Shown here: in pieces, positions 12,981 through 41,763 of the stretch
Layout of the letters: each line of letters begins with the position of its first letter
Numbering within the stretch: the stretch's first letter is position 1
Made by a program: the position numbers and the translations under genes
Assembly (NCBI GenBank): GCA_014695195.1
Contig: JACJNW010000028.1
Span: forward strand, 806,001 to 870,000
Origin: Cyanobacteria bacterium FACHB-DQ100
GTDB taxonomy: Bacteria; Cyanobacteriota; Cyanobacteriia; Leptolyngbyales; Leptolyngbyaceae
Direction of reading: 5' to 3'
DNA length: 64,000 bases
The notes under the pieces: generated by a model
Told to the model about the DNA's origin: nothing
Seen by the model: only the letters and a program-made list of their open reading frames with translations
The model's database searches: none

Positions 12981-14306
12981 ATGCTGGAAAATAGCTTTAA
13001 TCAACTGGTTGAGGAAATCCGCAATCAGTTAAAACCCGATGAACAATTCACGCTGACGCTGGATAGTGAACAAAGCCAATTCACGCGCTTTAATCATGCC
13101 AAAGTTCGCCAAACCGGAAGCGTCAACGATGGCAATCTGCAATTGGTATTGATGCACAATCAGCGCAGCAGTTATCGAGAGTTTCCGTTTACGGGCGATT
13201 TTGAAAACGATCGACGAACGGCAATCCAGGCGATCGCATCGCTGCGTGAAGAAGTGGCACAGCTGCCAGAAAATCCTTATCTAGTGCTCCCGGCTGGCAA
13301 TAATACCAGTCGCGAAGTTCATACCGGTCAACTGCTCAATCCAGAAGCAGTCGTTTCAGCTTTGCTGCCTGTCGTAACCGATCTTGATTTCACAGGCATT
13401 TATGCAGCCGGATCGGTGATTCGTGCCTATGCCGATTCGGTGGGTCAAAAACACTGGTTTGCAACGGACTCGTATTCGCTCGATTACTCGCTGTTTACAC
13501 CAGATGGGCAAGCCGTAAAAGGAACGCTTGCGGGATCAGATTGGGATAGTGAGGCGTATCAAGCGAGGATTGAAGAATCTCGATCGCAGTTAAGCCGCAT
13601 GGCACAACCGCCGAAATCGATTCAACGGGGACAATATCGCACCTATCTTGCCCCTGCTGCGCTTGCAGAACTCGCCTCGATGCTGTCTTGGGGCGGCATT
13701 AGTGAGTCCTCCCATCAACAAGGCGGAAGCTGTTTTAGTGCGATGCGGCGCGGCGAGAAAAAGCTATCTCCCAAGTTCACGCTGAAAGAAAACTTCAAAT
13801 CTGGCTTAGTGCCACGATTTAATGAACTGGGTGAAATTGCACCCTTGGAACTCTCGCTGATTGAATCGGGTGAGCTGATTAATATGCTCACTTCATCCAG
13901 AACCGCGAAAGAGTACGGACTAGAAGCGAATGGTGCATCTGAGGGCGAAGGACTACGATCGCCCGAAATTCTCCCTGGGGACTTAGACCACGATCGCATT
14001 CTTCAAGCTTTAGACACAGGGCTATACCTCTCCAATCTGCATTATCTTAACTGGAGCGATCGTCCCACGGGTCGAATTACCGGAATGACCCGATATGCCT
14101 GCTTTTGGGTGGAAAATGGCGAGATTGTTGCGCCGATCGAAAATCTCAGATTCGATGATAGTCTGTATCAGTTCTGGGGCGAGAACTTGATTGCGTTAAC
14201 CAATTTCCAGGAGTTCGTTCCTGAAGTTGGAACCTATGGACATCGGAATTTAGGCGGGGTTCACGTTCCTGGTATGCTCGTGGAGAACTTCACTTATACG
14301 CTTTAA
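12981..14306 (+). CDS. TldE/PmbA family protein, partner of TldD
   Basis: A 441-residue protein that aligns by pattern to the TldE (PmbA) subunit: same domain architecture as TldD but without the HExxxH zinc motif, so it is the non-catalytic half that shapes the substrate channel. Visible features include FTRFNHAKVRQTG near the N-terminus and the C-terminal GRITGMTRYACFWVENGEI and NLRFDDSLY blocks. The gap from tldD is 2 bp, and 2 bp from the next gene, a tight three-gene operon. Confidence 0.9.
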   Translation: MLENSFNQLVEEIRNQLKPDEQFTLTLDSEQSQFTRFNHAKVRQTGSVNDGNLQLVLMHNQRSSYREFPFTGDFENDRRTAIQAIASLREEVAQLPENPYLVLPAGNNTSREVHTGQLLNPEAVVSALLPVVTDLDFTGIYAAGSVIRAYADSVGQKHWFATDSYSLDYSLFTPDGQAVKGTLAGSDWDSEAYQARIEESRSQLSRMAQPPKSIQRGQYRTYLAPAALAELASMLSWGGISESSHQQGGSCFSAMRRGEKKLSPKFTLKENFKSGLVPRFNELGEIAPLELSLIESGELINMLTSSRTAKEYGLEANGASEGEGLRSPEILPGDLDHDRILQALDTGLYLSNLHYLNWSDRPTGRITGMTRYACFWVENGEIVAPIENLRFDDSLYQFWGENLIALTNFQEFVPEVGTYGHRNLGGVHVPGMLVENFTYTL

Positions 14307-35442: not shown

Positions 35443-35471
35443 TAGTGAACGAATGTCCAACTTATGGTTAA

Positions 35472-35517
35472 TGTACATTCACTAATTAATTGACGCTTTA
35501 ACACATTTATGTCATCG
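35472..35517 (+). repeat. Distal (left) terminal inverted repeat with about two transposase-site-like motifs
   Basis: Begins TGTACATTCACTAATT, then AATTGACGCTTTAAC and ATTTATGTCATC about 20 bp further. The TGACG.. and TGTCATC words resemble those at the other end of the element. Fewer sites than at the tRNA-proximal end, as in asymmetric Tn7-like ends. Confidence 0.75.
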
Positions 35518-35598
35518 GCCTCTAAACTGCTAGAAGTTTTATCTCATAACCCTTCTAGCTTGAAAGGCTCCCAGGCACTAAGGCGATCGGTTCTCTAA
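35515..35598 (+). other. CRISPR leader region, possible tracrRNA remnant
   Basis: Between the left end and the first repeat. Contains a perfect 7-bp hairpin (CTAGAAG at 35530-35536, CTTCTAG at 35552-35558) and the words GGCCTCT and GGCTCCCAG..TAAGG, which from memory resemble parts of V-K tracrRNAs. No long anti-repeat is visible, so a working tracrRNA is not shown. It would in any case act as the array leader. Confidence 0.3.
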
Positions 35599-35908
35599 GT
35601 TGCAATCGCCTTGCGAGGCAGGGGCGGGTTGAAAGCGAACTCCAGCCACATCAGAACATAGGGAAGTCTTAGGTTGCAATCGCCTTGCGAGGCAGGGGCG
35701 GGTTGAAAGAAGAGTTGATGAAGCGGTTGGTGGACTTGCTTTAGTTGCAATCGCCTTGCGAGGCAGGGGCGGGTTGAAAGACTTGTCACGAAAGCTTGAT
35801 ATTCCAAAGACTACGAGTTGCAATCGCCTTGCGAGGCAGGGGCGGGTTGAAAGTACGGGACTGAACGGATTACCTCAATCACCCCTTGGGTTACAATTGC
35901 CTTTGAGT
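35599..35908 (+). CRISPR. CRISPR array, four identical 37-nt repeats, four spacers, degenerate terminal repeat, no cas genes
   Basis: Repeats at 35599-35635, 35673-35709, 35744-35780 and 35817-35853 are identical: they start GTTGCAATCGCC, contain a GCCT-TGCG-AGGC mini-hairpin, and end GGGGCGGGTTGAAAG. Spacers are 37, 34, 36 and 36 nt (35636-35672, 35710-35743, 35781-35816, 35854-35889). A decayed repeat start, GTTACAATTGCC, follows at 35890, which puts the leader on the left and transcription rightwards. The 3' GGGTTGAAAG handle is the type used by V-K and related cyanobacterial arrays. There is no cas gene in the window, so the array depends on proteins encoded elsewhere. Spacer targets are unknown. 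Confidence 0.95.
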
Positions 35909-36046
35909 CCAAAATAGCTGTAGATCTACCCTTTAAGTTAGGTGTCAATCCTGAAGGTTAGAAGTTTGATCGACATCAAACTCTGCTAGACAATTCTCCC
36001 AACTTGAAATCTAGCCTCTGCTCGATTAGGCTTGAAGTATTAATTA

Positions 36047-36076
36047 GGTGGGTTGAAAGAAGGTTCAAGTCCTTTC
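36047..36076 (+). ncRNA. Delocalised homing crRNA: atypical repeat end plus 17-nt tRNA-Leu spacer
   Basis: GGTGGGTTGAAAG (36047-36059), a variant of the array repeat's 3' end, is followed directly by AAGGTTCAAGTCCTTTC (36060-36076). Those 17 nt equal the T-arm of tRNA-Leu on the minus strand (36270 down to 36254), where the preceding bases 36273-36271 read GTG, fitting the GTN PAM of Cas12k. The next base no longer matches. Short spacers after an atypical repeat, aimed at a tRNA gene next to the element, are the homing crRNAs of V-K CASTs. Expression is not shown. Confidence 0.8.
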
Positions 36077-36114
36077 TAAATTAGTTCCGGCGACAGTAGT
36101 ATGTTAACAATCTT

Positions 36115-36212
36115 AATTGCCATCTCAGACGACGCGAATCTGTAAAGATGACGCTAATTCGTTAAGAGCGACAAGAATTTGTTAACGATGACAAACAATT
36201 AGTGAATGTACA
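36115..36212 (-). repeat. tRNA-proximal (right) terminal inverted repeat with about four transposase-site-like motifs
   Basis: Read inward from 36212 on the minus strand it begins TGTACATTCACTAATT, then repeats of the form AATT-n-TGTCATC-n-TTAAC about every 21 bp (TGTCATC, TGTCGC, CGTCATC, CGTCGTC). This regular array of similar words is what multiple TnsB sites look like. It has more sites than the opposite end, and it faces the target tRNA. Confidence 0.75.
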
Positions 36213-36246
36213 ACAATCACATACTAGTAGGTAGAGAGTTCAGAAA

Positions 36247-36328
36247 TGCGGATGAAAGGACTTGAACCTTCACTTCTTGCGAAACCAGAACCTAAATCTG
36301 GCGCGTCTACCAATTCCGCCACATCCGC
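36247..36328 (-). tRNA. tRNA-Leu (anticodon UAG)
   Basis: An 82-nt class II tRNA on the minus strand. Acceptor GCGGATG pairs with CATCCGC, discriminator A; D-arm contains TTGGTAGACGC; anticodon stem CCAGA/TCTGG closes loop TTTAGGT, giving UAG; T-arm GAAGG-TTCAAGT-CCTTT. CCA is not encoded. Its 3' end lies 34 bp from the end of the CAST-like element, and its T-arm is the match of that element's homing spacer. Confidence 0.96.
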
Positions 36329-41568: not shown

Positions 41569-41763
41569 ATGGCACAGCGGACTCGATTGGGAGACATCCT
41601 CAAACCTTTGAATTCAGAATACGGTAAAGTCGTTCCCGGATGGGGCACAACGCCTTTGATGGGCATTTTTATGGCGTTGTTTTTGGTCTTCCTGCTGATT
41701 ATTCTGCAAATTTATAACCAAGAACTCATTCTCAACGGTTTTGATGTGGATTGGGGCGGTTAG
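41569..41763 (+). CDS. psbH: Photosystem II protein H
   Basis: A 64-residue single-span subunit of photosystem II with the typical N-terminus [20 protein letters not shown] and one membrane helix ([20 protein letters not shown]), followed by [11 protein letters not shown]. It stabilises bicarbonate and quinone-side functions of PSII in the thylakoid. Spaced 106 bp from the upstream gene, with its own promoter presumably there. psbN, which often lies divergently next to psbH in cyanobacteria, is not visible here. A strong terminator follows. Confidence 0.97.

Follow-up and report, generated by a model that had tools for sequence, protein, structure and literature searches.

A gene-less 741-bp remnant of a type V-K CAST, probably left by internal deletion, that keeps both transposon ends and its guides beside a tRNA-Leu gene

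We analysed a 64-kb stretch of cyanobacterial DNA (the window), in which a 741-bp element (35472–36212, coordinates correct to the base) lies next to a tRNA-Leu gene. The element is very probably a CRISPR-guided type V-K insertion that lost its middle by internal deletion and survives as a non-autonomous, probably stranded remnant. Its origin from a V-K CAST, proposed in an earlier note made from the sequence alone, is confirmed by the occurrence of the same ends beside V-K tnsB and cas12k genes in relatives, by a homing crRNA and by the insertion geometry. The layout described in that note also stands: two inverted ends that share a terminus, regularly spaced TGTC/GACG words (here read as TnsB-like sites), a four-spacer array, a separate repeat-spacer unit, a tRNA-Leu beside one end (matched by the homing spacer), and none of the four proteins Cas12k, TnsB, TnsC and TniQ. 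The features are collected in Table 1.

Table 1. Features of the element and of its target, in window coordinates.
Feature	Position	Strand	Basis
tnsB-proximal transposon end, truncated (terminal 86 bp)	35472..35557	+	98% identity to G007 end
Two predicted TnsB-like sites in the tnsB-side end	35478, 35498	+	motif scan
Putative deletion junction (3' arm of hairpin 35529-35559)	35557..35558		G007 similarity stops; leader-like sequence after
CRISPR leader remnant (CTTGAAAGGC, 30 nt, then first repeat)	35558..35598	+	alignment with three same-genus V-K CASTs
V-K CRISPR array, four identical 37-nt repeats	35599..35853	+	sequence; 84% identity to G007 C19 repeats
Repeats 1-4	35599-35635, 35673-35709, 35744-35780, 35817-35853	+	direct reading
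Fourth spacer and degenerate start of fifth repeat (from ~35890)	35854..35907	+	direct reading
Truncated repeat (36047-36059) and 17-nt homing spacer (36060-36076)	36047..36076	+	direct reading and homing scan
tRNA-proximal transposon end	36092..36212	-	motif scan and G178 similarity
Five predicted TnsB-like sites in the tRNA-side end	36206, 36185, 36165, 36146, 36107	-	motif scan
tRNA-Leu (anticodon tag), attachment site	36247..36328	-	tRNA annotation, Rfam
Protospacer in tRNA-Leu (36254-36270) with GTG PAM (36271-36273)	36254..36273	-	homing scan

The terminus TGTACATTCACTAATT is exact at both borders of the element (35472–35487 on the plus strand and 36197–36212 on the minus strand). No third match with three or fewer mismatches occurs elsewhere in the window, at a threshold that is loose (at least two matches in 5 of 100 shuffles). 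When the region was block-shuffled 300 times, three of the shuffles contained an exact 16-bp inverted repeat (self-palindromes included). The motif search called for in the earlier note found seven TnsB-like sites, where 200 shuffles of the element averaged 0.21, a comparison that is partly circular since the motif was defined after the element's own sites had been seen; for that reason the recurrence of the motif in relatives is the better evidence. Both borders have the makeup of V-K-type transposon ends, with TnsB sites predicted from sequence motifs. Ziemann et al. (PMC9938897) use 'left end' for the tRNA-side end; in their naming the element's right border is thus the CAST left end. The tnsB-side end has two TnsB-like sites here versus five in each of the three relatives scanned. 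The ends of ShCAST probably resemble those of the element.

Both ends have counterparts next to V-K genes. In a genome of the same genus (G007), the orthologous tRNA-Leu, which has the same genes downstream, also carries a V-K CAST remnant. The tnsB-side end of this remnant shares 98% identity with that of the element over 86 bp and is followed by an open tnsB of 575 aa, whose product finds a V-K TnsB as its best solved match (E 5e-238), and a 133-aa tnsC stump runs into the tRNA flank. For the tRNA-side end, the counterpart is an end of a CAST with cas12k in G178 (88% identity over 57 bp). The exact terminus lies next to cas12k in G178, next to tnsB in G347, Nostoc sp. MG11 and Tolypothrix campylonemoides, and next to a partial cas12k in Cyanomargarita calcarea. 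V-K proteins were present on 4 of 12 GTDB contigs with the same terminus and on none of the other 8 (8 kb per contig), in a search that required the exact terminus and from which the own genome was possibly absent. Proteins were labelled as Cas12k by NF038191 and solved ShCas12k, and as TnsB, TnsC or TniQ by solved V-K chains; Pfam gave no match for two Cas12k proteins or for the ORF of locus L135 (see below). The earlier note had made its reading depend on similar ends being found next to a cas12k/tnsB locus in related cyanobacteria, and such ends do adjoin V-K tnsB or cas12k in relatives.

The repeats between the ends are also of V-K type. The array repeats are 84% identical over 37 nt to those adjoining cas12k in G007 (C19), and all four fit a repeat pattern written from these and related repeats. 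The spacers had no match at E 1 among phages and plasmids. From element base 87 on, the sequence can be aligned to the CRISPR leaders of three V-K CASTs from the same genus, and a TTTGAAAAGC-like box stands 28–30 nt from the first repeat (spacing counted by eye). We considered 35558–35600 as a tracrRNA remnant; the leader-like spacing and alignment, together with the lack of a match to the tracrRNA profile, ruled this out.

With one further base, the homing spacer (18 nt in all) is fully complementary to 36254–36271 within the tRNA-Leu. V-K CASTs, as Ziemann et al. (2023; PMC9938897) describe them, have a truncated repeat with a 17-nt anchor spacer, a GTN PAM and a tRNA-side end 46–82 nt from the PAM. 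The element shares these traits, together with V-K repeats and inverted ends bearing TnsB-like sites: its spacer matches the tRNA outside the end, and the end lies 58 bp from the GTG PAM, as in relatives. A homing match beyond the end was found in 26 of the 41 other loci scanned and was lacking in 15, and 25 of those 26 matches have a GTN PAM. The distance from PAM to end is 57–66 bp in 15 of 23 measurable loci and ranges from 46 to 112 bp in the rest, a spread to which a few wrongly picked ends contribute. Because the protospacer match, the GTG PAM and the 58-bp distance fit V-K geometry, the element's own homing crRNA explains the insertion.

No 5-bp target duplication surrounds the element (GTTAA versus ACAAT), although one may have been lost by decay of its left copy. 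The flanking sequence reads CAACTTATGGTTAA up to the left border and ACAATCACATACTAG from the right border on, and G007 has CAACTTATGGTTGCAATCACAT ahead of its element. Read together, the window and G007 flanks suggest a pre-insertion site composed of CAACTTATGGTT, A or G, and CAATCACATACTAG. In that site the window's element would lie to the left of CAATC and the G007 element to the right of CACAT, probably as two separate insertions about 10 bp apart in one attachment site, with the G007 insertion seemingly about 10 bp nearer the tRNA. A single insertion inherited by both genomes was rejected on the ~10-bp displacement of these two flanks, which a later flank change could also have affected. 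Among the genus members G001, G002, G004, G005, G006 and G007, the sequence upstream of the tRNA-Leu varies.

Other sequences near the attachment site are recorded here as observations. CAACTTATGGTT lies just outside both CAST remnants (window 35443–35471; G007 L010:10414-10652, there with AACCATAAGTTGTCC-like repeats) and also near the tRNA-Leu of G009 (L053, upstream of the gene); a pattern for the CAACTTATGGTT repeats matched one of nine genomes, G007. They may mark one end of a further Tn7-like element that shares this attachment site. The eight bases ACAATCAC follow the tRNA-side end both in the window (36213–36220) and in a CAST of G002 at a different site (L075:4191-4198, minus strand), which may be chance or a target preference. 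Rfam matched only the tRNA and a psbN element in the window, the latter a plastid psbN 5' UTR element at 41610–41670 (minus strand) in cyanobacterial DNA.

The four proteins of a complete autonomous V-K CAST (Cas12k, TnsB, TnsC and TniQ) were not found in the window. Only one ORF inside the element reaches 80 aa, a frame of 81 aa that runs antisense to the array, and a tblastn search of the window with seven V-K proteins gave nothing better than E 0.05. The tracrRNA was sought with a profile of the 330 bp that follow cas12k. This profile detects left-out relatives in 14 of 14 cases and members of a distant clade in 4 of 4, and it has no match in the element (best in the window, E 0.14 at 13673). 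Unlike a complete V-K CAST, the element has neither the proteins nor a tracrRNA, totals 741 bp and is truncated at one end. The loss of the tracrRNA and the drop from five TnsB-like sites to two go beyond what the earlier note had observed, and they make movement in trans less likely.

An internal deletion would account for all of these losses. In the history we propose, a complete type V-K CAST would have inserted 58 bp from the PAM in the tRNA-Leu, guided by its own 17-nt homing crRNA. A later internal deletion would have fused the CRISPR leader to the tnsB-side end at base 86 of the latter; tnsB, tnsC, tniQ, cas12k, the tracrRNA and three TnsB-like sites, all absent from the element, would have gone with it, presumably in a single step. 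What was left would be a non-autonomous, probably immobile shell. The putative junction falls in a hairpin (Table 1), and hairpins are a common place for deletions. None of the relatives' genomes examined held an intact parent that combines this leader with this tRNA-side end, so the deletion is pieced together from different genomes. With the protein genes and the helper RNA gone, the element is probably a stranded remnant rather than the member of a new family of tiny elements. Decay appears not yet to have set in at the repeats and the homing spacer, since the four repeats are identical and the spacer matches perfectly. This could reflect a recent deletion or retained use; any present role, as a reserve of guides or as an occupant of the site, is hypothetical.

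The same structure could in principle arise by misassembly, with two ends of different CAST copies joined. Several V-K cas12k genes are present in some relatives, so such joins are conceivable, but the element lies on a 1.2-Mb contig and is present once in its own genome (G000), with no other DNA match there at E 0.001, and we give an assembly artefact almost no credence.

The own genome does carry V-K machinery. A separate, apparently intact V-K CAST (G000:C25, L074:5304-13453) is located at a tRNA-Thr and comprises cas12k (646 aa), tnsB (627 aa), tnsC (282 aa), a tniQ-like stretch, a tracrRNA and a six-repeat array; its homing crRNA is directed at the tRNA-Thr, with the end 60 bp from a GTA PAM, and its tnsB-side end was not located. 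Its Cas12k (NF038191, E 4e-255) is the sole cas12k match in the genome and lies on a different contig from the element. The TnsB and Cas12k of this CAST, 41% and 45% identical to the G007 proteins, represent another V-K clade, and its terminus reads TGTACGTTCGCAAATT / TGTACGTTCGCAAATTAAATGTC versus TGTACATTCACTAATTGTTTGTC in the element. A TnsB-like site of the C25 CAST (TTCGCAAATTAATGTCGC) agrees by eye with the element's TTAACAAATTCTTGTCGC at 14 of 18 bases. A cognate TnsB for the element was not found in the own genome, where the only TnsB match is of the C25 clade. The search for cas12k and tnsB with matching ends that the earlier note had suggested therefore found the genes, but their termini differ.

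These results bear on whether the element could be a functional MITE-like CAST, a short element mobilised in trans by V-K machinery that homes to the tRNA-Leu with its own crRNA. Both termini, the five-site tRNA-side end, the four identical repeats and the perfect homing match are kept, as that reading would have it, and the C25 CAST offers an apparently intact machinery with a partly similar TnsB-like site. Against this, the searches made recovered a single copy, the own TnsB is only 41% identical to that of G007 and belongs to a CAST with different termini, one end has two sites rather than five, and the target duplication is absent; we consider such mobilisation unlikely. It is likewise improbable that the element is a self-addressing non-autonomous CAST, gene-less at 741 bp, with its own homing guide and spacers and with V-K machinery and tracrRNA supplied in trans. 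Were this true, it would be a MITE bringing its own address label.

The copy searches favour a stranded remnant. No second full-length or junction-spanning copy was present in 388 class-level genomes, 17 of which (own included) had partial matches; since only two candidate places were scored in each genome, a second copy that has diverged might have escaped this search. The 42 family genomes, which were also those of the order-level search, likewise held no second full-length copy (7 with matches, own included; up to 13 places per genome). The separate search that yielded the G007 end match scored up to 9 places per genome. On the 12 GTDB contigs, no compact opposite-end partner was found in 8 kb each, a search that a partner with a diverged terminus would escape; an apparent end pair in L175 proved to be the palindrome TGTACA read twice. 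The whole element had no match among plasmids, and the terminus pattern had none in IMG/VR.

Two marks of a MITE, several copies in the own or related genomes and an autonomous partner with matching ends in the same genome, were accordingly not found. The element resembles MITEs in being short and non-coding and in keeping both inverted ends, apparently by internal deletion; it differs in its single copy, in the lack of a compatible transposase in the genome searched, in the missing target duplication and in carrying guide RNAs. The searches returned a single copy and gave no sign of mobility, which the loss of the tracrRNA and of TnsB sites makes less likely. The class of MITE-like elements envisaged in the earlier note gained no support, with one copy in the own genome and no second among the 388 or the 42 genomes, and the further copies with the same ends that it proposed to look for in related genomes were found neither full-length nor compact. 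Its suggestion that the machinery 'acts, or once acted, in trans' fits in its second half; the first half gains no support, with the tracrRNA gone and two sites versus five.

The guides might also have been put to other use, the array and homing crRNA being kept as a domesticated cassette that supplies another V-K CAST, or the ends protecting the site from insertions. The identical repeats and the perfect homing spacer would agree with such retention, and other cas12k-less arrays exist at tRNA genes (L145, L146). The tracrRNA is absent, however, and there is no clear promoter (three promoter-like sites versus 1.4 expected). Nor does the repeat pair with the tracrRNA of the own genome at a better duplex energy than shuffles do (115 of 200 as good), a test that discriminates poorly because the own CAST's repeats themselves reach only 72 and 27 of 200. 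We regard a domesticated cassette as very unlikely.

Among 11 tRNA-side V-K ends in relatives, full-length cas12k accompanies five, fragments accompany one, and five have none; these ends were picked by DNA similarity to the element, with ~15 kb behind them (17 kb taken), and so cannot stand for V-K CASTs in general. The set excludes G017 (L164 and L014, no cas12k there), G024 and G103 (contig ends), two G347 loci (tnsB-side matches) and loci reached only via repeats, such as G012. The array is kept in two of the five cas12k-less loci (G171 and G374). A 3.1-kb reduced V-K CAST in G306 (L135:12219-15319) has both ends, a broken tnsB and a homing crRNA, and no cas12k or array; an IS-type transposase ORF in G306 has weak IS701/IS4 transposase matches. 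Since five of the 11 ends, that of G306 among them, lack cas12k and one has fragments, the reduction of V-K CASTs at tRNA genes recurs. In PMC9938897, 12 degenerated Cas12k proteins were excluded from the tree. The element appears to have undergone the same process as such decayed V-K CASTs with degenerate or missing cas12k, but a compact end pair around an array was seen in none of the 11 relatives' ends, the nearest being the 3.1-kb CAST of G306.

The element is the most extreme reduction among the loci examined, with both ends, all guides and no genes, and the whole looks like a continuum of decay rather than a proliferating family. We found no published description of a gene-less V-K shell of this kind in the open-licence PMC literature. 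The element shows how far the reduction of V-K CASTs can go, with guides and ends outlasting every gene; for this reason, orphan V-K arrays or ends beside tRNA genes may be footprints of past CASTs. With its 741 bp, both ends and a homing guide of its own, it is also a minimal donor provided by nature, suited to asking whether the guides of a defective element can direct machinery supplied in trans and what number of TnsB sites an end requires.

Two further loci have unusual arrangements of V-K ends. In G009 (C23; L012:351-1179), the first repeat of an orphan V-K array is interrupted by a second terminus of the tRNA-side type; the two termini, at 351 and 1179, point the same way, and the arrangement looks like the fusion of an end into the repeat. 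Beside a tRNA-Thr of an uncultured Xenococcaceae, two equally oriented V-K-type termini lie 100 bp apart (L173:5454 and 5554), which suggests stacked insertions.
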